In this document: one piece after another, positions 1,560-20,245 of the stretch
Layout of the letters: each line of letters starts with the position of its first letter
How positions within the stretch are numbered: the stretch's first letter is position 1
IMG/VR virus record: IMGVR_UViG_3300006738_000050
Coordinates: 1-29,661 of that record
From: a virus
Strand: one strand, 5' to 3'
Length of the DNA: 29,661 nucleotides
The notes under the pieces: model-generated
Told to the model about the DNA's origin: nothing
The model's database searches: none
Seen by the model: only the letters and a program-made list of their open reading frames with translations
Position numbers and translations under genes: made by a program

Positions 1560-3416
1560 CTAGGGACCACCAGTGGAACCGCCCTCACCAAGCAAGCCAC
1601 GAACAACAACAAGACCATACATATCAGGTCGAACCATCTGTTTGGCATACCGAGTCATCACGCCCTTACGGGGTACGAAGTCTTCGGTACCAAAGATGGT
1701 CGGAGTGACCTGTAGCGGTACGTATGGAGCGTAGACATAGCCACTCTCCAAGAAGCTTGAGCCATTGCGGCCGACAAGAACAACATTACGCGGGAAGTAA
1801 GGATCAACGAAAACGTCGAACTTACGACTAAGGCTGCCAGCGTTAACTGCGCCGATAGTACCACGATCTGCATCCGCAGTAACGTTCGCACGGAATCCTG
1901 AGGTGAACTCAAGAATGTTAGCAACTTCAGGTGAACACACCACGAAGTTAGCTCCGCCACGAAGCGTCTTACGGTGAATCTGAGCCGATACATCGTTAAT
2001 GGTTTCGACAAGAGTCTCATACCATTCACTTACCGTACCAGTGAAGTCAGGAGCAGCTGCCGTAGCACCAAGCTCCGCACCAGTTTCGCGATGAACGAAT
2101 AGACCCGGGGATCGAGACCAGTAGTACCGAGCAGCAGTTCCGCCATGCACCAGAGCACCTAAAATCTCACGGTCGATTTCAAGGGCGATCTGCTCAGAAA
2201 GAATCTGAGTCAATTCAACCTCGGCATCAAGATTATGGTAGGCATTAAGATCCTGACCAAGTTCCGGAGTCCATTTGGCTTTGAGCTTTTTGGTAACAGC
2301 GGTAACAGCGATACTGTCAACCTTGATATCAATCTCAGGAATAGCCGCCTGATCCTCCAAAGCCCATGGTGAACCCATCGCGACAATACCAATAGCATCC
2401 TGGCCAGTGCCGGCGGTCGGGCTGGCATTCATGTTATCCTCAATTGGATAAGTCACCGTCGCAGGGCCGGTAAGCGGAGTAGCTGCAGGTGCAAGCACCG
2501 GAACAGCTGCAGTCTGGCCCGCGAAGACGAAATACAAAGTATCTCTAGAACCGTCCCAACCAGCCTGGGCCGGATGGTGGGTTGCAGAGCCTAATGCAGT
2601 TAACCTTCGAACGTGCGCGGCGTTAGCCAAGTTAGCAGGCTTAGGTTCGGCAAACTCAATAGTTATCAACTTATCACCGTCCAAGAGACCAGCATCCCCA
2701 GCTGCCACCGTGTTGGCTACAGAGGCGGTTACCACCAAGGCTGCGTGTGAAGCACCCAAGCCGAGAACATCAGCGTCCCAACGAAGAAGCCTAGATTCCG
2801 CCTCAGAAATAACAGTCGGATCGAGATCGATCGTTGCAACAAGTGCACCGACGTTCGCTGCAGCTAATGCGTTTGACCCAGTAGTCGTAGAATAGCCAGT
2901 ATTTAGGTTGTAGAAACCTTCATCAGGCGTATCACCAGAAACACCAACAGCATCAGACATGTCAGCAGCAGATTGATAACCTAATTCAACACCACCAGTG
3001 ATCTCATGACCAACACGACCACCACCATAGAGTGATTCGCCGTCGCCATGAGTAGCACCCATGATCCCCGAGTTGTTCGTTCCTGCAGTAAAGTCCAGGA
3101 AGAAGATGAGGCCGGAAGGCAAACTCATCGGTTGGACGGAAACGAGTTCGTTGGCCACGAGGCCTCCGAAGACTCGACGAACGATCGGGAACGCGACTGA
3201 CGCGAAACCTTCAACATCGCCACCAGACATGCTTGAAGCCTCTTTGAGAAGCTGAGCAGCTTGGTTTTCTAATAGACGGGCCATGCCCTGTCTCTTGGCA
3301 TCCCCTTCAAGACCTTCAAGAAGACCGGTACGTTCCCACTTGTCAAGTAAGGCAGCACCCTCTCTTTGAAGACTTCTAGAAGCGATGCCCTCAGTTAGCT
3401 TTTGTAAAACAGACAT
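1560..3416 (-). CDS. 23: Major capsid protein, T4 gp23 type
   Basis: A 618-residue capsid subunit that assembles the head shell around the scaffold. The N-terminal region (residues 1-60) is a helical propeptide; LLKE near residues 56-59 followed by Ala is a plausible cleavage site for the gp21-type protease (inference). The following segment VAFPIVRRVFGGLVANELVS, then PMSLPSGLIFFLDF, is the most recognisable gp23 signature, and the C-terminal stretch with KGVMTRYAKQMVRPDMYG closes the HK97-type fold. Residues about 120-330 are Gly/Ala/Thr-rich and poorly recognisable, placed where T4 gp23 has its insertion domain. At 618 residues it is roughly 100 longer than T4 gp23. The start has an excellent ribosome site (AAGGAGAAATTTAAA then ATG), 25 bases after the scaffold gene. 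A strong terminator follows. Base composition is more GC-rich than the neighbours, as is common for highly expressed phage genes. Confidence 0.96.
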   Translation of the reverse strand: MSVLQKLTEGIASRSLQREGAALLDKWERTGLLEGLEGDAKRQGMARLLENQAAQLLKEASSMSGGDVEGFASVAFPIVRRVFGGLVANELVSVQPMSLPSGLIFFLDFTAGTNNSGIMGATHGDGESLYGGGRVGHEITGGVELGYQSAADMSDAVGVSGDTPDEGFYNLNTGYSTTTGSNALAAANVGALVATIDLDPTVISEAESRLLRWDADVLGLGASHAALVVTASVANTVAAGDAGLLDGDKLITIEFAEPKPANLANAAHVRRLTALGSATHHPAQAGWDGSRDTLYFVFAGQTAAVPVLAPAATPLTGPATVTYPIEDNMNASPTAGTGQDAIGIVAMGSPWALEDQAAIPEIDIKVDSIAVTAVTKKLKAKWTPELGQDLNAYHNLDAEVELTQILSEQIALEIDREILGALVHGGTAARYYWSRSPGLFVHRETGAELGATAAAPDFTGTVSEWYETLVETINDVSAQIHRKTLRGGANFVVCSPEVANILEFTSGFRANVTADADRGTIGAVNAGSLSRKFDVFVDPYFPRNVVLVGRNGSSFLESGYVYAPYVPLQVTPTIFGTEDFVPRKGVMTRYAKQMVRPDMYGLVVVRGLLGEGGSTGGP

Positions 3417-3440: not shown

Positions 3441-4655
3441 TTAATTGTCTTTTTTGATTCCAGCTAGGAATCTCCAACGATCTAACGTTGGATCTGCTTT
3501 CTGACTTCTAGAACTTTGTTTTCTAGCCGACAGAATCATCGAAGAAGACTTTTCAACTGCCTCGCTCAGTGACTTAGGCTGCTTAGCATTTCTGCGAGAG
3601 GTGCTGCCCACTGTGCTTTGAAGTGTCTCAAAAATAACTTTTGCTTCTTCAATATTGTCAGCATTTGAAATAGCTTCGGCAAGCTTATGCTTTTGCCGCT
3701 CATTTAGGGAGTCGCTATTCAATGCCTTATTCGTATAAAGTAATTTTGCATTTGTAAGAGAAGCTAAATCAAGCTTTTCTTTTAAAATTACAACTGCATC
3801 TCGCAACCTGGAAATATAACTTTTCGTTTTGGTCAGAGATTCAGTTAATTGTTCATTTTTGTTTTCTAGTGATTCATTTACTTTTTCGAGTTCTGCTACT
3901 GCTTTTCTTATAGCATCTTTTTCTTCTCGAACTTTCGAATCTTGTTCTAGAGCGAGAAGTTCTTCTTCTGCTAGCTCTAGTAGTGGTCCAGGCGTTCCTG
4001 CCCAGCCGCTCTTCTGAGGATGGATGTCGACTGTTAGTTGCTCATAGATTTGGTTAAAGAGGTCTTCTTCTAATTCTTCTTCGGAGAGGTTATCTTCCAA
4101 ATAAAGTTCTTCGTCTAGATCTTCTTCAAAGTAATCATCTTCATAAATCAAATCTTCATCTAGATCCTCATTATAATAATCCTCTTCATAGACCATGTCT
4201 TCTTCATAATATTCTTCAGCCATCAAATCTTCTAAGAGACCCTCAGAAAGATCAATTTCTTCTTTTCCTTCTGTTTCCATATTAATTTTTTCTATTTGTT
4301 CCAGAAGGGCGTCAAGAGGAATTTCAATTTCCTTATCAATATCGCCGGCTTTTTGAGTTGCGGCCTTTGGAATATGTTCCATAACAGTACTTTCTTCAAC
4401 TTCTCCTTCCATGCCAGTGGGGTCTAGCCCCATGGGGTCGGAACCAGGCATTGCCATTGGATCTGGCTCCATACCTGGCATGCCCATGTCACCGGCAGCG
4501 AGTAGAGGATCGGGCATATCTTGTTCTAATAGAGACTCTACAGCCCCTTTAATTTGTTTTGAATATTTTTCCAAAACTAGAGATTCAGCATTTTTGATTG
4601 CGGCGCCACGTAAGGCATCTGCATCAATTATTGCTTGTTCCAACATGTTAGACAT
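3441..4655 (-). CDS. 22: Prohead core scaffold protein, T4 gp22 type
   Basis: A 404-residue acidic, helical protein immediately upstream of the capsid gene, the T4 position of the scaffold that fills the prohead and is later degraded by the protease. Visible parts: helical N-terminus with MLEQAIIDADALRGAA; a Met/Pro/Gly/Asp-rich linker (about 50-85); a very acidic repetitive block (about 138-205) of EEDYYNEDLDEDL-type units; a coiled-coil segment (about 235-300) rich in E, K, L and N; and a C-terminal motif PTLDRWRFLAGIKK that matches the usual end of T4-like scaffolds (DP-x-x-x-R-x-x-LAGIK). It is much longer than T4 gp22 (269 residues), mostly through the acidic block. The ribosome site CAGGAG precedes the ATG at 4655. 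Identification rests on position plus the C-terminal motif. Confidence 0.85.
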   Translation of the reverse strand: MSNMLEQAIIDADALRGAAIKNAESLVLEKYSKQIKGAVESLLEQDMPDPLLAAGDMGMPGMEPDPMAMPGSDPMGLDPTGMEGEVEESTVMEHIPKAATQKAGDIDKEIEIPLDALLEQIEKINMETEGKEEIDLSEGLLEDLMAEEYYEEDMVYEEDYYNEDLDEDLIYEDDYFEEDLDEELYLEDNLSEEELEEDLFNQIYEQLTVDIHPQKSGWAGTPGPLLELAEEELLALEQDSKVREEKDAIRKAVAELEKVNESLENKNEQLTESLTKTKSYISRLRDAVVILKEKLDLASLTNAKLLYTNKALNSDSLNERQKHKLAEAISNADNIEEAKVIFETLQSTVGSTSRRNAKQPKSLSEAVEKSSSMILSARKQSSRSQKADPTLDRWRFLAGIKKDN

Positions 4656-5880: not shown

Positions 5881-5905
5881 ACATTAATTTCTCCTCAATA
5901 CATAA

Positions 5906-7159: not shown

Positions 7160-7173
7160 TAATAATCAGTCTC

Positions 7174-8022: not shown

Positions 8023-8037
8023 AAGTATTTTCCTTTT

Positions 8038-10095
8038 TTAAAATATTCTCATAGTGGAGCCAGTTCCAATGGTTAAATCATTACCACCACTAAAAACCAA
8101 TGGTCCGTAAAGACCACCATTGTGATCGTCGGGAACAACAATTGATGTGCTGAAAGTTACTGGATTCAAGAAACCAGCATGGGTTGTAAAGAATGAAGTT
8201 GCTTCTACTGATCCGGTTGCAACCAAGCTTGAACCATCAAATGTTAAATTAGCGCTTCCTGTGAAAGCACCAGAATCGTTATATTGAACTTGTGTGTCTG
8301 AACCGCCGGGAGTTCCAGAGCCACCTCCGCCACTTCCAGATATTGAGACACCGTTAACAAAAAGACTTCCAGTGATATTAACACTGCCTGTTAAATTCAT
8401 CCCTCCGCTAACAATTAGTGGGCTGCCGCCGGTGAGGGTACCATCAATAACAATAGTAGAACCTGTTAGAACAATGCCATTATGAGAACCAGAAATGACC
8501 ATATATTGATCACCATCTGCATTGTATTCTATATAACCACCAGTTACGTAGCTTTCAGGGCCGGCGGGATAAGTTCCAAAATATAATTTTATATTATCAT
8601 TAATTTTTATTGATCCGCTGGGATGGTAGCCTGCTGCTGGCTCATCAAAATTCATCAAAGCAGAAGAGTTGCCGGCATTAAATTGAATAGTGCCATCTGT
8701 TCCAGCGCCAATAAGAATATTGCCAGCAGCATTTAAATTAATATTAGCATCAGAATTTAGTGTAATACTGGTGCTAGCAGTCTGAATGATATTTGAACCA
8801 GATATAACTACACCCCCACCAGAAGGGACACCAGGAACATGAGAACCTGAAATAATTAAATATCGATATGCCGGAAGAGCAGTAGCATCATAGTAAATAG
8901 ATGCGGAACCTGATACATTTAGGCTGCCTGTTAAATTCAACCCCCCGCTAACAACTAGTGGGCTGCCGCCTGTAAGGGTTCCATTGATCTGTACATCGTT
9001 ATGGAATACAGCATTCCCAGAAACTGCCATAGTACCCGTGACAGATAGTGTATGAGATGGTGCTGTTGTTCCGATGCCAACATTGCCAACAGTATCAACT
9101 CTAACCTTTTCACTGCCGTCTCCACCGTGTATGCGCAAATTTCCGGCGCCATCGTTACCGTATTTTAAATATATTCCATCATTCGATACTAACACCATAT
9201 CTGCATCTGATAACAAATCAAGATTCGATCCGCCAGAGCCAGTAATAGTAGTAGCGTGTAACACACCATCAATTTGTACATCGTCTCTGAATACAGCATT
9301 TCCTGTTACATACATGCCAGTTGAAGCTGTCACATGAACACGACCTTGGATCGCTTCGAGGTTGATACCGCCGGAGCCGGCCGCCGTGATATTCGCGTAG
9401 CTTGGAGCTATAGCAGAAAAATAAGTCTGCGGTGCAAACCAAACAGCCTCTGCTTGTGTGTATAATGTACCGCCGTCATATAGTGTTATTGTCGCTGTGT
9501 CATTTGCATCTTGGCCATCATCAGCTTTGAGGGTCAAAACTGCATCTTGGCCCGGGCCGGATGCCATAGTAATATTTGAACCTGATAATACAATGCCATT
9601 TGAAGAGCCAGAAATGATTGGACTATAAAGTATATTTGTATTATAATCATATGTAAAGTTGTCAGACCCACTATGAACGGAACCAGATGCAAAAATAACG
9701 TGTTTATCATTTGCTTCGCCCATATGGAAAGAACTTGAAGATAAATCGCCCACAACAATTGAAGCTATTGTATCTTCAAAAGCTAGTTTTATCCATCCAG
9801 GATTTCCAGCAGAGCCAGAAAATATAACCCAATCATTTAAGTCCCAATCAGTTTGACCATCAACATTATGCGCTCCGGATCCTGTTATTTGCCAATAATC
9901 ACCAGCAGAAGCAGTCAAATTGGTTGAAGAATGGTAACCACCGTTAACAGAAGCACCAGCTGTAAAAAGATTGCTGTATGGGCCGCTTGGGGCCCCATCT
10001 AAATCAGATCCTGTTGCCGCATTTGTGCCTGCATTCCAAAGACCTTGGAATCTTGCTGCTCCTAAAAATGCTAATTGTCCTGTTTGTGATGGCAT
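8038..10095 (-). CDS. Long fibre-like virion protein with repeated GSL/GSV modules
   Basis: A 685-residue protein, the largest in the cassette and probably a trimeric fibre. It is rich in G, S, T, N and V, with many short ISGSNI, VSGSASI and TGSVNITGS strands. An NVGIGTTAPSHTLSVTG segment (about 336-352) is typical of phage fibre shafts. A GTLTGGSPLVVSGG-type module occurs twice, near residues 371-390 and 551-570, from a 60-base direct DNA repeat. A glycine-rich hinge precedes a DTQVQYNDSGAF module (about 602-613) that also occurs at the N-terminus of the 272-residue gene. There is no peptidase or chaperone signature at the C-terminus. The ribosome site GTGGGAG precedes the ATG. Whether it is attached to head or tail cannot be decided from sequence; its place in the capsid operon makes a head fibre possible. 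Confidence 0.78.
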   Translation of the reverse strand: MPSQTGQLAFLGAARFQGLWNAGTNAATGSDLDGAPSGPYSNLFTAGASVNGGYHSSTNLTASAGDYWQITGSGAHNVDGQTDWDLNDWVIFSGSAGNPGWIKLAFEDTIASIVVGDLSSSSFHMGEANDKHVIFASGSVHSGSDNFTYDYNTNILYSPIISGSSNGIVLSGSNITMASGPGQDAVLTLKADDGQDANDTATITLYDGGTLYTQAEAVWFAPQTYFSAIAPSYANITAAGSGGINLEAIQGRVHVTASTGMYVTGNAVFRDDVQIDGVLHATTITGSGGSNLDLLSDADMVLVSNDGIYLKYGNDGAGNLRIHGGDGSEKVRVDTVGNVGIGTTAPSHTLSVTGTMAVSGNAVFHNDVQINGTLTGGSPLVVSGGLNLTGSLNVSGSASIYYDATALPAYRYLIISGSHVPGVPSGGGVVISGSNIIQTASTSITLNSDANINLNAAGNILIGAGTDGTIQFNAGNSSALMNFDEPAAGYHPSGSIKINDNIKLYFGTYPAGPESYVTGGYIEYNADGDQYMVISGSHNGIVLTGSTIVIDGTLTGGSPLIVSGGMNLTGSVNITGSLFVNGVSISGSGGGGSGTPGGSDTQVQYNDSGAFTGSANLTFDGSSLVATGSVEATSFFTTHAGFLNPVTFSTSIVVPDDHNGGLYGPLVFSGGNDLTIGTGSTMRIF
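8384..8443. repeat. Internal direct repeat, copy 1, in the 685-residue fibre gene
   Basis: Sixty bases beginning CTGCCTGTTAAATTCA recur 540 bases away at 8924-8983, exactly in frame (180 codons apart), with about eight to ten differences by eye. The repeat encodes the LTGGSP-VVSGG-NLTGS fibre module. Confidence 0.8.
8924..8983. repeat. Internal direct repeat, copy 2, in the 685-residue fibre gene
   Basis: This is the partner of 8384-8443 in the same orientation and frame. Recombination between the copies would shorten the fibre by 180 residues without loss of frame. Confidence 0.8.
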
Positions 10096-10137
10096 TTAAT
10101 ATTCTCCCACTAACATATAATTAGATAGCAATATTTA

Positions 10138-11682
10138 TTATCTTCCCATGATCTTAAAAACATTTGCAGATGCAACGCCAAATACTTTTTTAATATCTAC
10201 GCCTGGTGTTTTATATACCTTATTTGTATAAACAATATCACCGTCATCACCGTCACAACTATATGAAGGGGGGTCAATACTAGCTAAGATAGATATATGA
10301 GGGTGGTACTTTATAGACGATTCTCCATCGTCGCTGTAATCTGAATAGACTATTCCGGTGGATTGCTCTTCCAAGACTGGCTCAACATTTAAGTAATCAT
10401 GATCGTAATTTACTAATACAATTGAAAAGTTATCAAGAAGCGTTATATCAGCTCTTGCAGCTGCGTTAAGCGATATTTCATTATAATTCGTGGAGCCGCC
10501 GTGCAACGAGGCTGTCAGCCAAGTTGTAGTCGCGATTGAATAATCAGTAACATTTCCTGCCATTGTGTTACCAGCAGAAAATCCTGTAATAGCGTCGAAA
10601 TCTGACAGTGTTAAAGCTGACCCAGTCCAAGATGATTTTACAACAATTAGATCCGAGAGGCCCTGGGGGGGCGTCGCGTAGCCTGCAATTTTCAATGTTG
10701 CGTTGTCTGGTACAGAAGTAATTTGACTCGTATCAAAAGTCATGAAAGCGCGGGAGACAAGCCACCCTTCGACGGGGACGTCGAAGTGCAACGCGGCGGC
10801 GGGGAATTCCTCGGCGGTGGCGCTGTCCGTGCCGTAGGTTCCGGATAAAGAATCTCTTGAATCAGACCAGGAGGTGCCGAGGATATTCAAGATGTGACCA
10901 TCGCCTGGGGCGGTGTAGTCGACCCCCCAAGTGGTACCACTAACATAAATTTGCTGAACGCTACTTGTCGCAAAGAAGCTGAAGCCGTATGCTTCTCCTA
11001 GGTCGGTGTTATTTGCTTCTCCTGGCCAATTAATTATAATTGGGGTAGAGTAATTATCGCGTGCCATAAGATCGGTCGCTGCTGGATCAATGGTACCACC
11101 GAGGTAATATGACTGATTATAAAAACCTCTTCGGCCGTAGATGGTGTTGTCCGCGACGCCAATAGTGGCGCCTGCACCCCACGCGTGCCCAGGAGAGCCG
11201 ACTACAACTATCGGTGCGTATCTAAATTCAATTCTACTAGATGTTTCATATAATACAACCTGGAATTTAAGATCTGCGTAGTTGGCGGCATCTTGGCCAT
11301 ATTCGCCAACTTCCCACTCTATAACAAAAAATTGGTTTGGTGTGGTACCAAACGCTTCAGATTTAACATACTGGGAAGTACCTGTAGTAGCCCTTAAATC
11401 GTCCCACCAAGGAGCTACAACTACAACGTCGGGGCCGTTAAATTTCGGATTATTATAAGATACACCGAAGGTGCCATCAAAACTGAGTAGTCCGTTAACG
11501 TTAATAGAGATCGTTGTATAATCACCACCATTAAAATTAAATGTAAAGGGTAATATAACTGTATCCCAGTTATCGTCGGCGCCGGCCGTGAAGACCGTCG
11601 TGGGTGAAATCAACGGTAATAATGCATCAGGTCCGCCGAGGCAAGGCTCCCGGGTGAGTGTCATATCATTGATTAGCGGCAC
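10138..11682 (-). CDS. Multidomain surface protein with bacterial-cell-surface-like beta domains
   Basis: A 514-residue protein. The GTG at 11682 is the likely start because AGGAGG lies eight bases before it; the ATG at 11664 lacks such a site. Residues about 30-235 resemble the beta-sandwich of bacterial surface proteins: TFNFNGGDYTTISINVNGLLSF, then VVAPWWDDLR, FFVIEWEVGEY and FQVVLYETSSRIEFRYAP, a pattern like nidogen-type or gliding-motility-associated modules. Residues about 285-430 (FDVPVEGWLVSRAFMTFDTS, ATLKIAGYATPP and later strands) resemble DNRLRE/carbohydrate-binding-type sandwiches. The C-terminal tail PGVDIKKVFGVASANVFKIM is a short motif also hinted at in the beta-helix proteins. 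It probably sits on the virion surface and binds host glycans (inference). A GC-rich patch lies inside the gene at about 10740-10860. Confidence 0.7.
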   Translation of the reverse strand: MPLINDMTLTREPCLGGPDALLPLISPTTVFTAGADDNWDTVILPFTFNFNGGDYTTISINVNGLLSFDGTFGVSYNNPKFNGPDVVVVAPWWDDLRATTGTSQYVKSEAFGTTPNQFFVIEWEVGEYGQDAANYADLKFQVVLYETSSRIEFRYAPIVVVGSPGHAWGAGATIGVADNTIYGRRGFYNQSYYLGGTIDPAATDLMARDNYSTPIIINWPGEANNTDLGEAYGFSFFATSSVQQIYVSGTTWGVDYTAPGDGHILNILGTSWSDSRDSLSGTYGTDSATAEEFPAAALHFDVPVEGWLVSRAFMTFDTSQITSVPDNATLKIAGYATPPQGLSDLIVVKSSWTGSALTLSDFDAITGFSAGNTMAGNVTDYSIATTTWLTASLHGGSTNYNEISLNAAARADITLLDNFSIVLVNYDHDYLNVEPVLEEQSTGIVYSDYSDDGESSIKYHPHISILASIDPPSYSCDGDDGDIVYTNKVYKTPGVDIKKVFGVASANVFKIMGR

Positions 11683-11694
11683 TAAAAAGCCCTC

Positions 11695-12513
11695 CTAAGA
11701 TATTTCAACCCAAACAGAATCCGGATCAAATTTAATTACGCCCACAGTAGGCGTACAATACCCGACAACTCTTACATAAGAACCTGATGCCGATGGGGCT
11801 GAGCCTGTCATCGCACCGGACATACCAGGCCCAGATGCAACATATACTGCTGATCCTGTCTGCCAGGCGCCGAGGACAGAGTATACTCCTGGAAACAGTT
11901 CAGTATTGACATGGCCGCGGAGGAGCATCCCGTCGGTTGACGGGTCAGTTCCCAGCGCTATTCCCAGAAGAGACGCATTCCCAGCGGCGGTTTCACCCAG
12001 AGAGCCTGTGCCGGCAGCATTTGGGGCTTGCCACCCACCATCAGCATTAAGATAGAAAAGTGTGCCGGGCGGCACCGTAGAACCTGTGCCGTAATAAACA
12101 ACGTCGCCAATTCCAGTTGCTGAAGCCAGGCCGGCTGGGTCGAGGGCTCCCGTAGCATGTCTAGAGCAGTGGCCCATCTCTAAAGCTAAAAGGTTAGCAA
12201 CAGAAAGGGAGGTACCATCATAAGTTACGTTAGAGGCTCCCTGAAAATTTACTCCATCGCTGTATTGGACATGGGTTGCGGTGCCGCCTGGTGATACGTG
12301 CCAACCATCACTGCCAGTAATCCCAACTCCATTAACAGTCACACTACCTGTCACGTTTAGCGAGCCGCTAACAAATAATTCTGGTACTGGAAGAGTGTCA
12401 TCAAAAGTTAATCGAGCGCTTCCAGTAAAAGTACCAGCATCATTATATTGGACTTGAGAATCAAGCCCACCTGGTATACCAGCTCCACCGCCGCCGCCGC
12501 TTTTAAAACCCAT
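11695..12513 (-). CDS. Fibre/decoration-type protein, paralogue of the 282-residue gene
   Basis: A 272-residue protein. The N-terminal glycine-rich hinge and the module SQVQYNDAGTFTGSARLTF (about 19-37) recur as HVQYSDGVNFQGASNVTYDG near residue 82 and as DTQVQYNDSGAF in the 685-residue fibre. Residues about 135-272 form the globular domain shared with the 282-residue protein: GIALGTDPSTDGMLLRGH, GSAVYVASGP, ASGSYVRVVGY and a FDPDSVWVEIS end. A ribosome site GTAGGGGA precedes the ATG. The gene lies between the multidomain surface protein and a small virion-type protein. It is likely a fibre-tip or decoration component; its partner is not identified. Confidence 0.72.
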   Translation of the reverse strand: MGFKSGGGGGAGIPGGLDSQVQYNDAGTFTGSARLTFDDTLPVPELFVSGSLNVTGSVTVNGVGITGSDGWHVSPGGTATHVQYSDGVNFQGASNVTYDGTSLSVANLLALEMGHCSRHATGALDPAGLASATGIGDVVYYGTGSTVPPGTLFYLNADGGWQAPNAAGTGSLGETAAGNASLLGIALGTDPSTDGMLLRGHVNTELFPGVYSVLGAWQTGSAVYVASGPGMSGAMTGSAPSASGSYVRVVGYCTPTVGVIKFDPDSVWVEIS

Positions 12514-12523
12514 TGTTAATCCC

Positions 12524-12982
12524 CTACTCTGTTACGCCAGAACCAGTTAGTTCATACATTGATTGTGTGGGAATATTTGTTAATGATGCATATAACATAA
12601 ACCCGCCCACGTTGGCAGCGGGTGCGGAAATAAATATTTCCTTGCACTTAACATCAAATTCCATGGAATCTTCATGACTATTTAATTCTATAAAATGCAA
12701 ACCACTTACAACGTTCTCCCACGGCTTTCCAACAGAGCCGGTTGATACAAAGTGCACTCTTATAGGGCCGTCGGTATCGACGGCAGAAGAGCCCGATGCT
12801 ACAACATTAATCTTTTTTGTTACGGTAGGAAAAGAAATCTGAATTTCCTGACCAGCTGCGACTGTCGAGCCGGTAATAAAAGGATGACCGGATACTTGAT
12901 ATGAGCCCACATTTCTTAAACCGACGCGTGTTGCTCCCGCAAACGTTACGTTGTCACTTGCTTCTCTGGGTTTAAATGCCAT
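12524..12982 (-). CDS. Small beta-rich virion-type protein, unknown
   Basis: A 152-residue protein beginning MAFKPREASDNVTFAGATRV. It has alternating beta strands (EIQISFPTVTKKINVVASGS, RVHFVSTGSVG, EIFISAPAANVGGFMLYASL), no membrane segment and no coiled coil. Composition resembles small phage capsid-surface or fibre-associated proteins. The ribosome site GTAGGAATA precedes the ATG at 12982, eight bases after the bS21-like gene. It is the first gene of the fibre cassette. No family is recognised; virion role is inferred from composition and neighbours. Confidence 0.68.
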   Translation of the reverse strand: MAFKPREASDNVTFAGATRVGLRNVGSYQVSGHPFITGSTVAAGQEIQISFPTVTKKINVVASGSSAVDTDGPIRVHFVSTGSVGKPWENVVSGLHFIELNSHEDSMEFDVKCKEIFISAPAANVGGFMLYASLTNIPTQSMYELTGSGVTE

Positions 12983-12990
12983 TTTTATTC

Positions 12991-13230
12991 CTACCTTATA
13001 TTTAGTTTTCTATTTCTTTCTTGTTCTGCCTTTCTGGCATTTTGAAATTTTTTAATTTTTTCTTGTCGACGTTTTTTCGAAGGTTTAATATAAAATCTCT
13101 TATCTAAATAGTCTTCAATTATTCTTTCTTTTTTGACCTTTTTGATAAATTTTCTTATTAAGCGATTTATATCTCCGCCAACTTCTCTTATATCAACTTT
13201 CACGTTAACTGGTCTCTTACCCTTGCTCAT
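12991..13230 (-). CDS. rpsU: Ribosomal protein bS21 homologue
   Basis: A 79-residue very basic protein. The segment VNVKVDIREVGGDINRLIRK through KKERIIEDYLDKRFYIKPSKKRRQEKIKKF parallels bacterial bS21 ([39 protein letters not shown].K) along its whole core: the beta strand, the R-x-F-K-K helix, the R-x-F/R-E-F-Y-x-KP turn and the lysine/arginine-rich tail. bS21 sits on the 30S subunit near the anti-Shine-Dalgarno region and aids initiation, so a phage copy may replace the host protein and favour phage messages (inference from reports of viral bS21). The start at 13230 overlaps the upstream stop as ATGA, implying coupled translation; a GTG at 13245 would add five residues but is less likely. 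It lies in the capsid-assembly operon. Confidence 0.88.
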   Translation of the reverse strand: MSKGKRPVNVKVDIREVGGDINRLIRKFIKKVKKERIIEDYLDKRFYIKPSKKRRQEKIKKFQNARKAEQERNRKLNIR

Positions 13231-13601
13231 ATCATGTGTTTCCACTTGTCGTCAACAATATTCAGTATACCGGCTATATCAACGCCGGCGTCGTTAGCTG
13301 CAACGCCAGCTAGCGGGGATCCTGGTGATGACTCCCTTATTTCTGGAACGTTGCCAAAAACGTCAGCCTTCACTTTGACAGATTCATTTAAACGTTTAAT
13401 ACGTTCTTGACGTTTACGCTCATATTCTTCTTCTAGCTTTCCTTGCTCTGAATCTTTTTTTGTTTCCATTACAACACCAGTGTTCATTCCGCGAACAACT
13501 TCAGAAATGATGCCTGACAACATTCCTTCTTCTAGAATTACTTCTCGAACTGTTTGCCTTATCAGGGGCTTAAGAATTTTTTTAAAATCTTCTCTATTCA
13601 T
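13227..13601 (-). CDS. Conserved-type unknown protein between protease and bS21 genes
   Basis: A 124-residue protein of unknown function. The N-terminus (MNREDFKKILKPLIRQTVRE, then VILEEGMLSGIISEVVRG) is amphipathic helix; residues about 50-75 are a charged helix with EEEYERKRQERIKRLNES; the C-terminal half is less ordered with PGSPLAGVAANDAGVDIAGI. It starts two bases after the protease stop and its own stop overlaps the bS21 start by four bases. Position between protease and scaffold would suit a prohead-core protein, but no homologue is recognised. Confidence 0.75.
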   Translation of the reverse strand: MNREDFKKILKPLIRQTVREVILEEGMLSGIISEVVRGMNTGVVMETKKDSEQGKLEEEYERKRQERIKRLNESVKVKADVFGNVPEIRESSPGSPLAGVAANDAGVDIAGILNIVDDKWKHMI

Positions 13602-13602
13602 T

Positions 13603-14220
13603 TTAATCTCTCAATATTGAATCTAGCAAGTGATCAATTCGATCCTTTTTTGACTCATTTAAATATAAATTAATTTCTGGATTGATATTTGTGGACGGGT
13701 GTACATATGCGCCCGGAGTTGAGGGCTCAGAGACCATATCGAAACAAATAAGTTGAAAATCATCTTCAACAATTGTTTTTCCATCTTTTTCTTTAACTGA
13801 ACCCAAACCACGAGACGAAATACCAAGCTTGACATTTGCTTTTACAAGATCTTTGAGAATTCGGCCAGAGGGGGTGTCGAGAACTTCAAATTTTCCCATT
13901 ACACTTTCTCCCTCCCACCACATCTTTATAGCCAAATGAGAAGCATTTTTGAGATTAATCACACTGTCATCAGGATGATCAAGTTCCCCCAAAGATCTTC
14001 TCTCGTGCACCGCTTTTTGGTAATTTTTAATTTCACGAGTAAGAATATTTTTACTATATACTCGTCCATTACCATTTTTGGTACCAGCCTTCTGGCATAT
14101 GCCCACAAGATAGATAGCGCCGTCCATAGCCTTTCTTTTTTCGGCTTCGGTTAAAACATTTACCGGACATCGACCTTCTGGGCACAGCTCAAAATATTCT
14201 TTTAAAAGCCGTTGTGCCAT
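13603..14220 (-). CDS. 21: Prohead core protease, T4 gp21 type
   Basis: A 205-residue serine protease of the phage prohead protease family (herpes-assemblin-like fold). It cleaves scaffold and capsid propeptides after glutamate during head maturation and then itself. Visible landmarks: NGRVYSKNILTREI near 51-64; the ELDHP motif with catalytic-type His82; a GKFEVLDTPSGRILKDL segment; the KLGISSRGLGS motif with catalytic-type Ser135 or Ser136; and FDMVSEPSTPGAYV near 160-173. Length agrees with T4 gp21 (about 212). The gene is followed closely by two small genes. In T4 the scaffold and capsid genes follow directly; here they are separated by 9 kb of other genes. Confidence 0.93.
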   Translation of the reverse strand: MAQRLLKEYFELCPEGRCPVNVLTEAEKRKAMDGAIYLVGICQKAGTKNGNGRVYSKNILTREIKNYQKAVHERRSLGELDHPDDSVINLKNASHLAIKMWWEGESVMGKFEVLDTPSGRILKDLVKANVKLGISSRGLGSVKEKDGKTIVEDDFQLICFDMVSEPSTPGAYVHPSTNINPEINLYLNESKKDRIDHLLDSILRD

Positions 14221-14226
14221 TTTCTA

Positions 14227-14382
14227 TTATTTTCTCACTGTTTTGGTTGATAAGTTTGGACCAATCTTGCCTTTGCCAGCACCAGGAGGAGCCTGATTTG
14301 CAACCTTGCCAGGATTTTTAATTCCCCAAACCATCGAAGAAGCTTTTCCTTCTTTTACTACTTTTTTATCGCCTTTAGCCAT
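14227..14382 (-). CDS. Small basic protein of unknown function
   Basis: A 51-residue protein, MAKGDKKVVKEGKASSMVWG onward, lysine- and glycine-rich with a QAPPGAGKGKIGPNLSTKT tail. The start at 14382 is chosen because AAGGAG lies eight bases upstream; a longer frame from 14445 lacks such a site and begins in unlike sequence. The stop lies seven bases before the protease start. Composition suggests a nucleic-acid- or core-associated small protein, similar in place to T4 genes 67/68, but no homology is claimed. Confidence 0.65.
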   Translation of the reverse strand: MAKGDKKVVKEGKASSMVWGIKNPGKVANQAPPGAGKGKIGPNLSTKTVRK

Positions 14383-14398
14383 TTTTAAATCTCCTTTT

Positions 14399-14429
14399 AA
14401 AAAAAATAATTTGTGAGGCTCACCCTCAC
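14399..14429 (-). terminator. Weak hairpin plus T-tract upstream of the 51-residue gene
   Basis: On the minus strand GTGAGG pairs with CCTCAC around a five-base loop (stem arms 14424-14429 and 14413-14418), followed after AAATTA by eight T. The six-base spacing between stem and T-run is longer than ideal, so it may act as an attenuator or have no role. Confidence 0.3.
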
Positions 14430-14485
14430 GCGATATCGCTACCATTGCAGCAGCGACGAACTTCTGGAATGTTACGCCGTTTCAT
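14426..14485 (-). CDS. Possible 19-residue peptide, translationally coupled
   Basis: The frame MKRRNIPEVRRCCNGSDIA begins at 14485. Its ATG overlaps the stop of the membrane-protein gene as ATGA, and GGAGGTGAAGAGA lies just upstream, one of the better ribosome sites in the window. It ends at 14426 in the hairpin. No family can be recognised at this length; it may be a leader peptide, a gene remnant or chance. Confidence 0.3.
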   Translation of the reverse strand: MKRRNIPEVRRCCNGSDIA

Positions 14486-14796
14486 TTCTCTTCACCTCCA
14501 TTTGTATTTCTAAATTTTAAGCCGAAATCGTTTAATAACATGCTCAAGAAATAACTTGTCCCGGCTGATAACCATCCCAAAAGTAATCCATTTATTAAAT
14601 TGTACTCAAACGTAAATAGTTCTGTGAAACAATTGATCCCCCACAAAAAAACACCAACCCAAAAACCAAGACAAAGTGGGCAATGGAACAATTCTCCCAG
14701 TTTGCCATGCGCTGGCCTCATTGAGTTAAAAATTGAACCGTAAGCAAGGATGTACGTTAGGCCGTAAGCACACAAGATAAAATATATTAATTCCAT
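14482..14796 (-). CDS. Small membrane protein with CPLCLGFW motif (DUF1360-like)
   Basis: A 104-residue protein with three or four hydrophobic segments: residues about 3-20 (YFILCAYGLTYILAYG), about 42-58 (LGFWVGVFLWGINC), and about 68-88 (INGLLLGWLSAGTSYFL). The central HCPLCLGFWVG motif, with two cysteines three apart at the start of a membrane helix, is like that of DUF1360-type small membrane proteins. The ending NTNGGEEK is hydrophilic. It could be a holin-like or superinfection-related protein, but the similarity supports only 'membrane protein'. It starts seven bases after the upstream gene. Confidence 0.7.
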   Translation of the reverse strand: MELIYFILCAYGLTYILAYGSIFNSMRPAHGKLGELFHCPLCLGFWVGVFLWGINCFTELFTFEYNLINGLLLGWLSAGTSYFLSMLLNDFGLKFRNTNGGEEK

Positions 14797-14802
14797 AATT
14801 AC

Positions 14803-15327
14803 CTATATACGATAAATTGAATTTATTCCGTAAGCTGGGCCGCCTGGTCGTAAAGTACCCTTTCTATCGCTGTGATACCTTTCAGGATCGAACTCTGTGT
14901 ATTCGTCGATTTCTGGCTCAAGTAAATTACGCTCTACTTCTGCTTCAAATTCCTTTTGATCTACGTAGAAAGGTAAATCTCCATCAAAGAATTTTGATAC
15001 TGCAAATAATATATATTGTATTGAATCACCTTCTTTGGCGTCAGGATATGAAGCTTCCATCGACATAAATAAGTTTCCAGCTTGGACAGAATCGTAAGTT
15101 ATAACACCATTTGAATTTAAAAATTTAAATAATCTAACCTGAGTTTCATGTATTTCGTCATCTAACTCTTCTTTTGGCAAAGCAACTACTTTCTTTTGAG
15201 CTGGCAAAATCATAATATCAATCTCGGGATGATCAACAATAATTATATTTCCATCAATAGTCTTCTTGGCTTTAAGATGGATTGTTTCAATTGAAGGTTC
15301 TTCTACGATTTTAATGATTATGGGCAT
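14803..15327 (-). CDS. Unknown acidic protein downstream of the portal gene
   Basis: A 174-residue protein, beginning MPIIIKIVEEPSIETIHLKA. It has an N-terminal beta-rich part (residues 1-50, with NIIIVDHPEIDIMILPA) and a mixed helical, acidic C-terminal part ending RPGGPAYGINSIYRI. Start and upstream stop overlap as TAATG at 15327, so translation is coupled. There is no membrane segment or known motif. It lies where T4 has prohead-core genes 67/68; a structural or assembly role is a guess from position. Confidence 0.7.
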   Translation of the reverse strand: MPIIIKIVEEPSIETIHLKAKKTIDGNIIIVDHPEIDIMILPAQKKVVALPKEELDDEIHETQVRLFKFLNSNGVITYDSVQAGNLFMSMEASYPDAKEGDSIQYILFAVSKFFDGDLPFYVDQKEFEAEVERNLLEPEIDEYTEFDPERYHSDRKGTLRPGGPAYGINSIYRI

Positions 15328-16136
15328 TATTTATTTATCTCGCTAACCAATGATTGTATTTGGAATATTTCAAGTACTAAGCTTTTATCTAGTTTTCTTT
15401 GGTTGTAATTTGAAATACGTTCCAGAAGCTTTTGCATTTTTTCTTTTGTTGCATGATTTTGAGAAGATATATTCTCTTTTAACGTAGTAGAGAGGCGTGT
15501 AATCTCTTCGTACAAAAGCGCTTTAAACTCTAAACCATTATCCATATATGATGTAATATATTTATTTAAAAATTCTTTCTGCGATTCATTTAAGTTTGCT
15601 GAATACTGCTCATTAAATTTTTCAACAAAATTTTTCATAGCTAAATTATTTATTTTAGGAAACTTTCCATTATCTTCTTCTGTTTTTGTTGTAAAAGAGT
15701 CTAAAAACTTTTTTTCAAGCAATATTTGTTTTTTGGGGTTCAAATTTTCTTGTAATATCTGGTTAATGGTGGCCAGTCTTTTAAAAGAGGGAACAAAAGT
15801 TTTCCAAATATTTTTTGTTAAAGTCTTATTCATCTTGTTAATCAGGTTAGTTTGTTGATTAAAAACTTCTTTTTTGCTAATTGAACTAAATTGTTTTTTT
15901 GCTTCAATTATTAATTTTTCTATAGTTTTTTGTGGCAAATCTTCAATTTCTGAAAAGGAGTCATATATCTCTTTTTCTTTCCTCAAAATCTTTTCTTTTC
16001 CAAAATATTCTTTAAGTATGCTGATAACCGTACCTTTTTTAGCGTTCTCTTTGTGTAAGATAGATTTAGTTAATTCTTTAATTAATATTTCGTAAATCAA
16101 AGCAGTATTGCGTTTTTTATTATGACTAAGTTTCAT
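15327..16136 (-). CDS. Lysine-rich helical protein of unknown function, prohead-core position
   Basis: A 269-residue, strongly helical and basic protein (about one residue in six is lysine). The start at 16136 (MKLSHNKKRNTALIYEILIK) is preferred to 16160 because it leaves only an 11-base overlap with the portal gene and gives a natural N-terminus. Sequence alternates long amphipathic helices with Asn-rich linkers (NLNPKKQILLEKKFLDSF, NEQYSANLNESQKEF, YNQRKLDKSL). No catalytic motif is visible. Adjacent to the portal gene, it may be an inner-core or portal-assembly protein (inference). Confidence 0.72.
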   Translation of the reverse strand: MKLSHNKKRNTALIYEILIKELTKSILHKENAKKGTVISILKEYFGKEKILRKEKEIYDSFSEIEDLPQKTIEKLIIEAKKQFSSISKKEVFNQQTNLINKMNKTLTKNIWKTFVPSFKRLATINQILQENLNPKKQILLEKKFLDSFTTKTEEDNGKFPKINNLAMKNFVEKFNEQYSANLNESQKEFLNKYITSYMDNGLEFKALLYEEITRLSTTLKENISSQNHATKEKMQKLLERISNYNQRKLDKSLVLEIFQIQSLVSEINK

Positions 16137-18114
16137 CAGTTGTTTTCTCCAAAGAATCAATCAAAACTTTGATATCGTGACTTTCTTTAAATAGTTTGGC
16201 CTCTTCCTCATCATAATTAGCTTCCAGATCTTCTGAAAGGTTATAAAGTAACTTCAAATCTGAATAACCTTTCAGAGTATTTCTAGAAGTATTGCTACCT
16301 AATTCTGCTCCCACCATTCCAAGCATTGAGCGCCGGCGTGGTCCAGAAGATTTTCGCTTATCGCTTACTTTAGGTTCATACCAGCCATGTGATCTGGGAG
16401 TCGTAGTTTTACGACGTCCAAATTTATCCCGGCCAGTATAGGGCCAATCATCACGGTTTCCCGGAGCTTCGGCTGGGGATGGCGCCTCTGTAGCTGCTAA
16501 GAGTGGCCCTGCTTCTTCCTCCCCGCCTTCTTCGGGTGCACCTTCCTCAGGGGCGCCTTCCAGCTCACCAGGCATACCCATTTCTTCTCCGCCGGCTCCT
16601 AGGTCATCTAAACCGCCTAGGCCACTGGGGCCTCCGCCGGCTGCAGCTGCAGCCTCACCAACCTGTTCCAAAGCGAAATCATGTTTTCTATCATAAAAAG
16701 CTTCAATTTGCATTCTCCCAAATTCTTGTTCACTAACATTCAAAATATTCTGTGCGACCCAACGACGACTAAAATATCCTTCGCTGGCTGCATCAGCTGC
16801 CTCAAATCTAGCCTTCCAGTGTTCAAGCTCTTGTAGCTCGGCGATCTTTGAAGGATTGTTTAAAGCCAGCTTAAAAGATAATAAGTCATTTCCACGATAT
16901 CCCATCGTAAACAAATGTATAACGCCTACTTTTTCAAGCTCTGAAATGATTGAACGCTGCAGTCGCTGAACTGTTCTAGCGAATCTAACATCTTTTTGCG
17001 CCAAAGTTGCTTTATCTTCATCGGCCCCCTCTCCTCTAGACAAATAAGAAGCAGGTATTTTTAATGCACTAAAAAGTTTATCTCTTAGATATTTAACATC
17101 TTCAATGTCTCCGGTATATTTCCCGCCTCCGAGGCTCTCTATTTTGGTATTCGAGGCCTGACCTCTGATCGGGATATAATAGTCTTCTTCAATGCTCAGA
17201 GGATTATAACGTAAATCGACGCGACCACTATTAACATCAACAATTTGATTTCGCTTCATCTGCGTCATAACTTTCTGCATATATTGTTCAACATCCTCGG
17301 GGGGTACGTTGCCAACATCAATATAGAAAACCCTACGATCGGGAGAACGAACAATCCTATATGCCATCATAGCATCTTCTAATAAAGTCAACTGTCTCCA
17401 TATTCTTCGAGCAGCATCTAGTGCTGATGTACCGTACGGTGCGAACTTGTCATTTCCCAAAATTCTAAAATGCGCCATTTGCCAATTTTCTAATGTCAAA
17501 CCGGCAGTATTCCATTGATATTGTATATAATTTGGATTCTCTTTATCTTCTCCTTCTAGACGTTCAATTTCATTTGGGGGAAGGCCGATGGCATTCTTAA
17601 TTCCCTCATCCTCTTCAATATCTAAGTAAAGAAAAAAGTCTCCATACTTACACATAGAACGACTCCAACCATATAAATTAAACTCAAGGTTTAGTATATT
17701 ATAATAGAGAGTTTCCAAAACTGACTTGATTTCAGAGTTACTACAGATAATATTTAGTAAAGGAGTATATAACGAGGAAGTGGTCATCTCGTCAGCATAA
17801 ATATCTAGTGCAGAAGCTATTTCTGGAGTATATTCCATCTGATCAAAATCGACGTATCTATCTAATCTATTCTGATTCGAATAATACTCAACCTGCAGGG
17901 CGCCATAAACATCCTGGTAGGCTGACATTTTAAATTCTTGGCCGCTAGCTGAGCGAAAACGTGATTTATATTTATCTAATTGACGTCTTTTTAGTTGCTT
18001 TGTATCCTGCCTTCTGTATCTAACAAGAGGTCCGGATAATAATTTAGTTAATTGTCTAAAAAGCGGATTTTTAGGATTTCTAGGGTTCTTTTTGTTTTGA
18101 TTTCTAGGGGGCAT
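16126..18114 (-). CDS. 20: Portal vertex protein, T4 gp20 type
   Basis: A 662-residue portal that nucleates the prohead and forms the DNA channel. Recognisable segments: basic N-terminus; YQDVYGALQVEYYSNQNRLD (about 66-85); the YTPEIASALDIYADEM block near residues 95-110; GWSRSMCKYGDFFLYLDI (about 158-176); the AYRIVRSPDRRVFYIDVGN block with PPEDVEQYMQKV (about 255-285), the most typical gp20 signature; and LFSALKIPASYLSRGEGADEDKATLAQKDVRFAR with the ALSQEDVRF-like motif. Residues about 485-560 are a low-complexity Gly/Ala/Glu/Pro run. T4 gp20 is 524 residues, so this C-terminal tail is extra. The ribosome site AAAGGATAA precedes the ATG, four bases after terminase. Confidence 0.95.
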   Translation of the reverse strand: MPPRNQNKKNPRNPKNPLFRQLTKLLSGPLVRYRRQDTKQLKRRQLDKYKSRFRSASGQEFKMSAYQDVYGALQVEYYSNQNRLDRYVDFDQMEYTPEIASALDIYADEMTTSSLYTPLLNIICSNSEIKSVLETLYYNILNLEFNLYGWSRSMCKYGDFFLYLDIEEDEGIKNAIGLPPNEIERLEGEDKENPNYIQYQWNTAGLTLENWQMAHFRILGNDKFAPYGTSALDAARRIWRQLTLLEDAMMAYRIVRSPDRRVFYIDVGNVPPEDVEQYMQKVMTQMKRNQIVDVNSGRVDLRYNPLSIEEDYYIPIRGQASNTKIESLGGGKYTGDIEDVKYLRDKLFSALKIPASYLSRGEGADEDKATLAQKDVRFARTVQRLQRSIISELEKVGVIHLFTMGYRGNDLLSFKLALNNPSKIAELQELEHWKARFEAADAASEGYFSRRWVAQNILNVSEQEFGRMQIEAFYDRKHDFALEQVGEAAAAAGGGPSGLGGLDDLGAGGEEMGMPGELEGAPEEGAPEEGGEEEAGPLLAATEAPSPAEAPGNRDDWPYTGRDKFGRRKTTTPRSHGWYEPKVSDKRKSSGPRRRSMLGMVGAELGSNTSRNTLKGYSDLKLLYNLSEDLEANYDEEEAKLFKESHDIKVLIDSLEKTTDET

Positions 18115-18117
18115 ATA

Positions 18118-19701
18118 TTATCCTTTTAACAACCAAGTAAAATCAGCATATTCTTGTTTTCTTTCTTCAAGATTATTTTCTCTTTTAATCTTTTCATATG
18201 ATAACATACCTGGTATTGATGTGTTCAATGATCTATTCGATGTTCCTACAGAAGATAAAAAAGCTTTTTGGTAATCTAAGTCTCTTTGGTTAATAGAATA
18301 TGCTGTATCTTTGACCCAGCACCCAATTGCGCATGCCATAATTAAATCATCATTATGTTTTTTCATTGCTTGCGGTCTTCCATTGTGCCAAACAAAAGTT
18401 TTCATTTCGTTAAATAATCTCCTAGACTTAACTTTAATTAGTTTATTTCTAACAAACTCTTCCATTTTGGCTATAACTAGAGGCCTGGTTTTTTGTGATG
18501 TAGTAAAACCAGGTACGATTCCGGAATGGCCGGCCATAAGTGGGTCAACATACTCGTGAGTCGACTTTTTAGAAAAATAAATATTTGGATATCCATATTC
18601 TTGCAATTTATCTAAAGCTGCCCAGCCGACTGTATTGTTCTCGATAACAATCATACAATTTCCATATTCTTTTCCAATTTCGTTAAGCATGTTGGCATAA
18701 ATATCAGGAGTCGGCTTGCCCTTATATTCGGCAATGATTTCATCAGTTTCTAATTTAAAAATATGAAATGTAGAATAATCTTCGCCATCGCCGCGGGCCA
18801 CATCAGCTGCTAACATGTAAGAATTTTGTGGAGTATATTCTTCCCAAATCCAAAAATTCCTGTCAAAACCAGTCTTGTATTTTGGCTCGCACAGCACACT
18901 TCCAATCCACTCCATATCCTCTGGGTGGAAAACAGTTTCACCAGACATGTTGAAATTACATTCGAGTTCTTGAGCAATTTGTCGACGTGACATGTTTTTA
19001 GTTTCTTTATCAAACCATTCTTTATCTCTTTCGGGGTGTACATCCCACGGAAGTGTTACCAAGTTAAAATCATTAACTCCAGATTCGGCCTCGATGCAAG
19101 TCTTGTGAAACCAGTTACCAACACCGTTCGGAGTTGATAATGCTATGCAGCGGCCGCCCGTACTCAATGTCGGGTACAAGCCAGTCCACAATTCTTCCAG
19201 CCCCTCAACATGTGCGGCTTCGTCAATAACTAAAAAAGATAAAGCTTCAGATCGGCCGGCATCGGCACTAGTCGACGAAGCTTTTATTTGAGATCCATTA
19301 TACAGTTCAAAAGAAGTTCGATTATCGATTACAATATCAGATATGCGCATCCAATCTGGAAGGTGCTTGTGTATGGCTTTCACCTTTTTAACTAAATTTG
19401 CAGCTGTTTGAAATTTAGTTGCGATAACTAAAACATTTTTATCACGATGAAACATCATCAACCACGCAACATACGCTGCTGTTATCGTTGAGATGCCAAG
19501 CTGCCTTGCTTTTAGCACAGCATTAAAGCGAAAATCATTAAAATTTTTGATTATCTCTGTTTGATAATCATAAGTCTTAAAGGGAATCAGACCCCTTAGC
19601 GGGTGAGAAATCTTAGCATAATTATTAATAAAATATACTGGGTCTTTGCCAGATTTAACAACTTCTTTTACAATCTGTTCTTTCGAAAGATGGTAAGACA
19701 T
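18118..19701 (-). CDS. 17: Terminase large subunit, T4 gp17 type
   Basis: A 527-residue packaging motor ATPase plus nuclease. The Walker A variant KARQLGIST (65-73) and Walker B LSFLVIDEAAH (154-164, Asp160-Glu161) form the ATPase site; TKFQTAANLVKKV and STPNGVGNWFHK (about 189-200) are the coupling motifs. The C-terminal RNase H-like nuclease has acidic residues at Asp300 (MLAADVARGDGEDYS), Glu354 (IVIENN) and Asp441/442 (HNDDLIMA), as in T4 gp17. The ATG at 19701 follows the upstream stop by one base (TAACATG) and has little ribosome site, suggesting coupled translation. Portal follows directly. Length is a little below T4 gp17 (610 residues). Confidence 0.96.
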   Translation of the reverse strand: MSYHLSKEQIVKEVVKSGKDPVYFINNYAKISHPLRGLIPFKTYDYQTEIIKNFNDFRFNAVLKARQLGISTITAAYVAWLMMFHRDKNVLVIATKFQTAANLVKKVKAIHKHLPDWMRISDIVIDNRTSFELYNGSQIKASSTSADAGRSEALSFLVIDEAAHVEGLEELWTGLYPTLSTGGRCIALSTPNGVGNWFHKTCIEAESGVNDFNLVTLPWDVHPERDKEWFDKETKNMSRRQIAQELECNFNMSGETVFHPEDMEWIGSVLCEPKYKTGFDRNFWIWEEYTPQNSYMLAADVARGDGEDYSTFHIFKLETDEIIAEYKGKPTPDIYANMLNEIGKEYGNCMIVIENNTVGWAALDKLQEYGYPNIYFSKKSTHEYVDPLMAGHSGIVPGFTTSQKTRPLVIAKMEEFVRNKLIKVKSRRLFNEMKTFVWHNGRPQAMKKHNDDLIMACAIGCWVKDTAYSINQRDLDYQKAFLSSVGTSNRSLNTSIPGMLSYEKIKRENNLEERKQEYADFTWLLKG

Positions 19702-19702
19702 G

Positions 19703-20245
19703 TTATTCTGTTCGACGAGTCACATTCTTTGGCTTCGCAGACTTCTTTCCCCAACCACCCAATTCAAGAAAGCTTTTAAAATCCTTCTCCAAATTATCTT
19801 CGCTAGGCTGTGCTTTATCTTCTGCATCCATACCAGAAATCTTATATACCTTTGTTGCAACAACAAAAACGAGATTATTATTCAACTTTTGTACTAAAGC
19901 GTCGACTTCTCCAACTGATTTAAGTCCAAGAGCAGAACCTGTAATTTGTTTATACCTCTTTTTAAGGTGCTTCACAATACTAACCATTGTGCGCTCTAAT
20001 TCATCTTCGAACTTGGTAGCATATACATCTCGTAATTTAATCTGAGATTGGTAAGTACAAATCATATTGGTTCCGCTGCAGCGTACCTTGAAACCATCCA
20101 TCATCCTAGAATCTATTAAAGGATTGCCTTCTTCTCTTTTAAGACCAATCTTAATTACTTCGCCTTTTTCATCCAGGGCGCCGTCGTAGCTATCAGCAGC
20201 TGCCTGGGCAATTCCCTCTATTACTTTAAGTGTTTTTTCTGACAT
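19703..20245 (-). CDS. Unknown protein immediately upstream of the large terminase
   Basis: A 180-residue protein, MSEKTLKVIEGIAQAAADSY onward. It has a helical start, a beta-rich central part (FKVRCSGTNMICTYQSQIKL), a helical DELERTMVSIVKHLKKRYKQITGSAL segment, and a basic C-terminal tail (GKKSAKPKNVTRRTE). The ribosome site GGAG lies before the ATG at 20245, which overlaps the preceding gene by 20 bases. Position just before gp17 matches that of the small terminase gp16 in T4, but no coiled coil oligomerisation pattern or DNA-binding helix-turn-helix is evident, so that identity is only a possibility. Confidence 0.72.
   Translation of the reverse strand: MSEKTLKVIEGIAQAAADSYDGALDEKGEVIKIGLKREEGNPLIDSRMMDGFKVRCSGTNMICTYQSQIKLRDVYATKFEDELERTMVSIVKHLKKRYKQITGSALGLKSVGEVDALVQKLNNNLVFVVATKVYKISGMDAEDKAQPSEDNLEKDFKSFLELGGWGKKSAKPKNVTRRTE

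Follow-up and report, generated by a model that had tools for sequence, protein, structure and literature searches.

Why should a virus of bacteria carry a gene for a ribosomal protein, and why among the genes that build its shell? The question is raised by a virus record analysed here in full (IMG/VR IMGVR_UViG_3300006738_000050; 29,661 bases, G+C 0.397; hereafter the window), which may be a genome fragment and in which a search for tRNAs found none. Its source is a T4-like virus of bacteria with its own copy of bS21 among the shell-building genes. bS21 is the commonest ribosomal protein in uncultivated viruses, making up 88% of those detected (Mizuno et al. 2019, PMC6375957), and a capsid-linked phage bS21, expressed late and read as an instrument of late takeover, has already been published (Chen et al. 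2022, PMC9723584).

The ORF starts with an ATG at 13230 and comprises 79 codons. Its product, which the initial annotation had called bS21, matches Pfam PF01165 (Ribosomal_S21) over residues 19-60 with 34.5 bits against a cut-off of 27 (E 1.6e-8) and the NCBIfam equivalog TIGR00030 (S21p) with 29.9 bits against 28.95; both matches exceed the curated cut-offs, and the assignment is borne out. The PHROGs family "ribosomal protein S21" is matched more weakly (E 0.0019). A single-sequence search of solved structures gave bS21 in 17 of 18 rows, with weak E-values (best 0.01), and the profile of an alignment of 26 relatives, 25 of which match PF01165 at E <= 0.01, reaches the bS21 chains of solved ribosomes (best E 8.2e-7). 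AlphaFold2 predicts the bS21 helix pair that had been anticipated (residues 21-45 and 50-78; mean pLDDT 88.2, pTM 0.52). Foldseek returned nothing at E <= 10 for this model; of the two chains ranked highest, both with low Z and high rmsd, one is Pseudomonas bS21 (7unr_u; Z 4.2, rmsd 9.1, 61 aligned) and the other, 8rwg_t (Z 3.3, rmsd 7.9, 54 aligned), belongs to an entry under which that bS21 sequence is also listed. Z values of 3.3-4.2 can arise by chance for helices, and the fold comparison adds little to the helix pair. Judged by its profile matches, the ORF is a genuine phage-borne member of the bS21 family.

The proposed location inside a head operon also holds, T4-type head genes lying around bS21 (Table 1). 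Read along the minus strand as transcribed, they run from terminase through portal, orf268, orf174, orf104, a small basic ORF, prohead protease and orf124 to bS21; after it come orf152, six ORFs that are SGS-rich or fibre-like, a probable scaffold gene and the gene for the gp23-type capsid protein. Terminase, portal and protease are at most nine genes upstream of bS21, and the capsid gene lies downstream past variable ORFs. orf124 starts 1 nt past the protease gene, and orf152 begins 8 nt beyond bS21. Searches of Pfam and PHROGs gave no family match for orf152, and the probable scaffold has none above cut-off. The six SGS-rich or fibre-like ORFs (4732-12513, minus strand) occupy the stretch between orf152 and the scaffold, where relatives have anything from nothing to different large ORFs; the head operon thus seems to contain a variable cassette here.

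Table 1. Features of the head operon and its surroundings (window coordinates)
Feature	Coordinates	Strand	Evidence
Terminase large subunit	18118..19701	-	phrog_2, 187 bits
Portal protein	16126..18114	-	phrog_213, 253 bits
orf268, conserved head-operon ORF	15327..16136	-	
orf174, conserved head-operon ORF	14803..15327	-	
orf104, conserved head-operon ORF	14482..14796	-	Sub-threshold DUF1360 (20.2 bits, cut-off 21); position conserved
Prohead protease (T4 gp21 type, Peptidase_S77)	13603..14220	-	PF03420, 109.8 bits; phrog_207
orf124, conserved head-operon protein, adjoins bS21 in nearly all relatives seen	13227..13601	-	
bS21-family protein, 79 aa	12991..13230 including stop (coding 12994-13230)	-	PF01165, TIGR00030, AlphaFold2, dN/dS
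orf152, frequent neighbour 3' of bS21	12524..12982	-	Relatives downstream of bS21 in many loci
Probable prohead scaffold	3441..4655	-	Precedes capsid gene, D/E-rich; position before major capsid protein conserved
Major capsid protein (T4 gp23 type)	1560..3416	-	PF07068, 243 bits

In the initial annotation the gene was described as coupled to late capsid genes through an ATGA overlap. The stop-start overlap is real (13227..13230, minus strand), but the partner is the 124-aa ORF orf124 and not a capsid gene. bS21 lacks a recognisable Shine-Dalgarno (SD) site (-3.3 kcal/mol), and translational coupling of orf124 and bS21 is probable. The two genes are spaced by -3 in 17 of the 95 loci (near-copies included) where spacing was measured, by -7 in 2 and by 0-16 nt in 73, and are far apart in 3. 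In the orf124 family, K7, E20, G26, L28, E34, V35 and G38 are invariant within a helix-like N-terminal stretch, and a D-x-G-V motif lies towards the C terminus.

A scan of viral contigs with the window bS21 yielded 38 loci. All of these have their recognised head genes on the bS21 strand. A single-sequence search places orf124 immediately upstream of bS21 in 37 of them, and the family profile adds the 38th, L028. Since this set had been chosen by bS21 itself, a second set was drawn through the prohead protease, consisting of the best 80 of at least 598 loci; two contigs are common to both sets, and some loci are near-copies. Among these best 80 of at least 598 loci, the bS21 profile finds the gene in 56 (54 different sequences), on the protease strand in every case and directly after orf124 in 53; L081, L086 and L111 have it some 0.9-1.0 kb further on. 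Of the remaining 24 of the best 80, 19 end before orf124 or no more than 100 nt past it. In L114 the contig stops within bS21, leaving a partial gene. Profile searches of the 3.4 and 1.0 kb past orf124 in L093 and L100, respectively, found no bS21 (in L093 only a chance-level match, E 0.46), and L110 has neither orf124 nor bS21 within 6 kb after the protease. The bS21 place in L101 is taken by an 87-aa ORF (7087-7350) that the profile does not match but that by eye looks like a bS21 far diverged from the rest. Most members of this part of the lineage have the gene, but the absences in L093 and L100 and the divergence in L101 show that it can be dispensed with.

Further afield, no bS21 was found in the 18.5 kb around the protease of Flavobacterium phage immuto, in which the bS21 profiles do not match a 75-aa ORF after the protease, or in the stretches analysed next to the capsid genes of Rhodothermus phage RM378 and of LR756511. 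In LR756508, an uncultured phage of 484 kb, a bS21 match at 5726-5998 immediately precedes scaffold-like and capsid genes, all on one strand.

How the gene came to this place was approached through an unrooted tree built on 79 columns, with 86 rows from phages and 59 from bacteria, in which many forks are collapsed. The bacterial rows are loci from two phyla, minus three that were dropped; L127 and L128 (phage copies in MAGs), L156 (wrong frame) and a 32-aa fragment from L112 were removed before residue counts and tree building. Eighty-five phage rows (84 distinct, Microcystis phage Mel-JY01 being present twice) stand behind one starred branch (96/88), apart from all sampled bacteria; SAR11 phage Mosig is the only phage row that groups with bacterial bS21. 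With two bacterial phyla sampled and many forks unsettled, a single old acquisition by the phage lineage is suggested rather than proven. In a scan of genome contigs the phage-like finds were limited to two, both from MAG bins (L040 and L041), and the scan therefore gives no nearest bacterial donor. These two head-operon contigs are binned in Flavobacteriaceae and Micavibrio MAGs, possibly by misbinning or possibly as hints of the hosts; both MAGs hold another, bacterial-type bS21 gene.

The divergence of bS21 follows that of its neighbours. Taken over 62 loci, distances between bS21 sequences are correlated with protease distances at r 0.51, with portal distances at 0.59 and with orf124 distances at 0.63, values similar to the protease-portal correlation (0.60), and none of 999 permutations reached the observed correlations. 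The head-operon position is kept while the bS21 sequence diverges together with the head genes. dN/dS for the window bS21 is 0.03 against a 93%-identical relative (L005), 0.21 against L006 and 0.17 against L007, and it is 0.03-0.10 in four other pairs, synonymous sites being near or past saturation in most of the comparisons. The adjoining protease gives 0.08 against L005 and 0.09 against L006 (the two computable comparisons), so that constraint is tighter on bS21 than on the protease in the L005 comparison and looser in the L006 one. bS21 is under purifying selection.

The residues that selection has kept, and those that have changed, were compared between 59 bacterial and 85 phage rows, Mosig and Mel-JY01 included. 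The window motif Y47-I-K49-P50-S51 is the aromatic-x-K-P-S/T core of bS21: position 47 has an aromatic ring in 85/85 phage rows (Y 67, F 10, H 8) and in 59/59 bacterial rows, and among 86 rows K49 is present in all and P50 in 94%. Core residues fixed in bacteria are thus kept in the phages, as expected if anchoring to rRNA is kept. Helix 1, in contrast, differs between the two groups. Position 24 is A in 55/59 bacteria and L or M in 79/85 phages; position 29 is K in 59/59 bacteria versus 2/85 phages (mostly I); position 33 is E, Q, D or N in 59/59 bacteria and K in 82/85 phages; and position 36 is G in 55/59 bacteria versus 29/85 phages.

A further column concerns the anti-Shine-Dalgarno sequence directly, since an aromatic residue at the position of Tyr54 of Flavobacterium johnsoniae bS21 (numbering confirmed on chain 7jil) hides it in Bacteroidota and in the phages of Chen et al., according to that paper (PMC9723584). 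The aromatic residue is found in 61/61 of their phages, whereas the window has Q63 and only 1/85 of our phage rows (L090) is aromatic, as are 7/59 bacterial rows. The window bS21 would therefore suit hosts that use SD pairing. This reading agrees with the gene starts: SD pairing at head-gene starts is above local background in 104/105 loci, the exception being a Flavobacterium phage (L122). Unlike that phage, the window has SD-rich gene starts, which appear to argue against an SD-blind host.

Many late genes in the window were initially credited with strong AAGGAG or GGAGG sites that might pair with a bS21-altered initiation preference. A count by eye places an exact site at 5 of 31 gene starts (those of the major capsid protein, nido514, orf52, orf385 and orf65), so "many" was overstated; SD sites are nevertheless well above chance, with AAGGA, AGGAG or GGAGG at 13/31 gene starts versus 10/599 other ATGs on the same strand and a median of -6.4 versus -2.6 at those 599 ATGs. 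The suggested pairing with bS21 is not supported. Medians are -6.4 for 21 structural-type genes and -6.1 for the 10 others (p 0.58), and loci lacking the gene show no consistent loss of SD pairing, a comparison that turns on a small number of bS21 losses: relative to background, L093 (-4.0) and L100 (-4.3) are at the strong end of the 105 loci and L110 (-1.5) at the weak end, with L101 outside the scored set. The same weak end includes three near-copies of the window that do carry bS21 (L001-L003; -1.7). A special partnership between SD sites and this bS21 was accordingly rejected, structural and other genes of the window being alike in SD strength and the sites being strong in L093 and L100 without bS21 and weak in L001-L003 with it.

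The T4 late-promoter motif is TATAAATA. It occurs in the window 4 times against 3.1 expected, with no occurrence on the coding strand, and at this chance level T4 late promoters were ruled out as support for late timing. Across positions 11000-20500, a sigma-70 scan gave 28 hits against 27.0 in shuffles and a terminator scan gave 8 against 7.8 in shuffled sequence. From its operon position, late expression of bS21 is plausible. Chen et al. report that phage bS21 is highly expressed and transcribed with structural genes and also that the bS21 region is not transcribed as one operon (PMC9723584); the latter means that operon position alone does not fix timing.

We consider it moderately probable that the phage bS21, made with the head proteins, replaces host bS21 on the 30S subunit and biases initiation toward phage mRNA. 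bS21 would be produced together with the head proteins from the T4-type head operon and, while these are being synthesized, would take the place of host bS21, a protein that the 30S exchanges easily; its changed helix 1, lying beside the anti-Shine-Dalgarno, would then alter initiation in favour of phage messages. We infer late timing, incorporation into ribosomes and the effect on initiation from the gene's position together with published work. The bS21 of pelagiphage HTVC008M enters E. coli ribosomes, and E. coli ribosomes with viral bS21 have their in vitro translation reduced to about 5% (Mizuno et al. 2019, PMC6375957), an activity that fits inhibition as well as bias.

That bS21 was instead recruited as a head component, either as an RNA- or DNA-binding prohead core protein or packaged and injected for the ribosomes of the next host, seems unlikely to us. 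It would account for a gene that sits among head genes in deeply diverged relatives, directly after orf124 in 53 of the 56 loci that carry it among the best 80 of at least 598 protease loci, and whose distances follow protease, portal and orf124 about as protease follows portal; encapsidation has also been suggested by Chen et al. (PMC9723584). A purely structural role, however, would not need the residues shared with ribosomal bS21 that are kept here, and phage bS21 also occurs away from head genes, none being annotated in the 12.2 kb around the Mosig gene. We regard as similarly improbable a translational inhibitor, in which the incorporated phage protein disables host ribosomes for host messages and does not promote those of the phage. 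The low activity of E. coli ribosomes with pelagiphage bS21 (PMC6375957) and the near-invariant charge change in helix 1 are in keeping with it, but the published assay was cross-species, and unless phage messages were spared, an inhibitor translated along with the capsid genes would damage the operon that encodes it. That bS21 is merely a passenger might explain the missing match in L093 and L100 and the strong divergence in L101 but is highly improbable in view of the dN/dS values (0.03-0.21 for the window gene, beside 0.08 and 0.09 for the adjoining protease) and of the long retention at one place.

In a more far-reaching reading, which as a whole is unlikely, an old T4-like lineage would have gained bS21 a single time and kept it fixed in the interval from protease to capsid genes; the altered helix 1 would make the phage protein a head-phase initiation factor for SD-using hosts, and the protein may in addition be a virion or prohead component that is injected into the next cell.

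The closest published counterparts are the Bacteroidetes phages of Chen et al. (clades a-e; PMC9723584), in which bS21 is likewise a few genes from terminase, portal, prohead protease and capsid, has the same proposed late role, and diverges in an N-terminal helix placed over the anti-SD. In those phages bS21 and the structural genes lie on opposite strands, whereas the bS21 of the window shares the strand of its head genes and overlaps the preceding gene. The pelagiphage proteins (HTVC008M, compared from papers, and Mosig EXVC030M) are also of the bS21 family and from phages of marine bacteria, but Mosig has no head gene annotated within 6 kb of bS21; this and its grouping with bacteria make a separate acquisition probable. 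Microcystis phage Mel-JY01 (RpsU; PP395634) has the arrangement of protease, hypothetical ORF, bS21, two ORFs, scaffold-like ORF and capsid on one strand, although its bS21 is distant in sequence (34% over 63% of the query, E 0.9), the ORF before it is unrecognised as orf124, and its recorded host is a cyanobacterium. A term search of the PhiMa05 paper (PMC13157829) found S21 named in the reference list only. Searched by title and the start of the abstract, the open literature yielded no same-strand head-operon bS21 group without the aromatic residue. Added here are the near-constant orf124-bS21 order, the grouping of phage bS21, the helix-1 change and the missing Tyr54 aromatic. The set adds a lineage in which bS21 stays with the head genes, without the residue that hides the anti-SD in Bacteroidota, although a few members do without it. 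The latter might be used as natural controls, and for experiments Mel-JY01 is an isolate on record with the same arrangement.

Other ORFs of the window merit brief mention. Translations of the neighbouring ORFs at 4732-5880 and 5906-7159 (both minus strand) have very similar C-terminal ends, as after a tandem duplication. Past the capsid gene, an ORF at 865-1458 (minus strand) is sulfotransferase-like, with 16.5 bits against a Pfam cut-off of 22. In a single 1052-aa ORF at 21715-24873 (minus strand), residues 2-162 form an Mre11/SbcD-like phosphoesterase and residues 369-1037 an SbcC/Rad50-like ATPase, the latter part falling under the SMC_N cut-off but being matched by phrog_77; in T4 these functions are encoded by two genes, 47 and 46.
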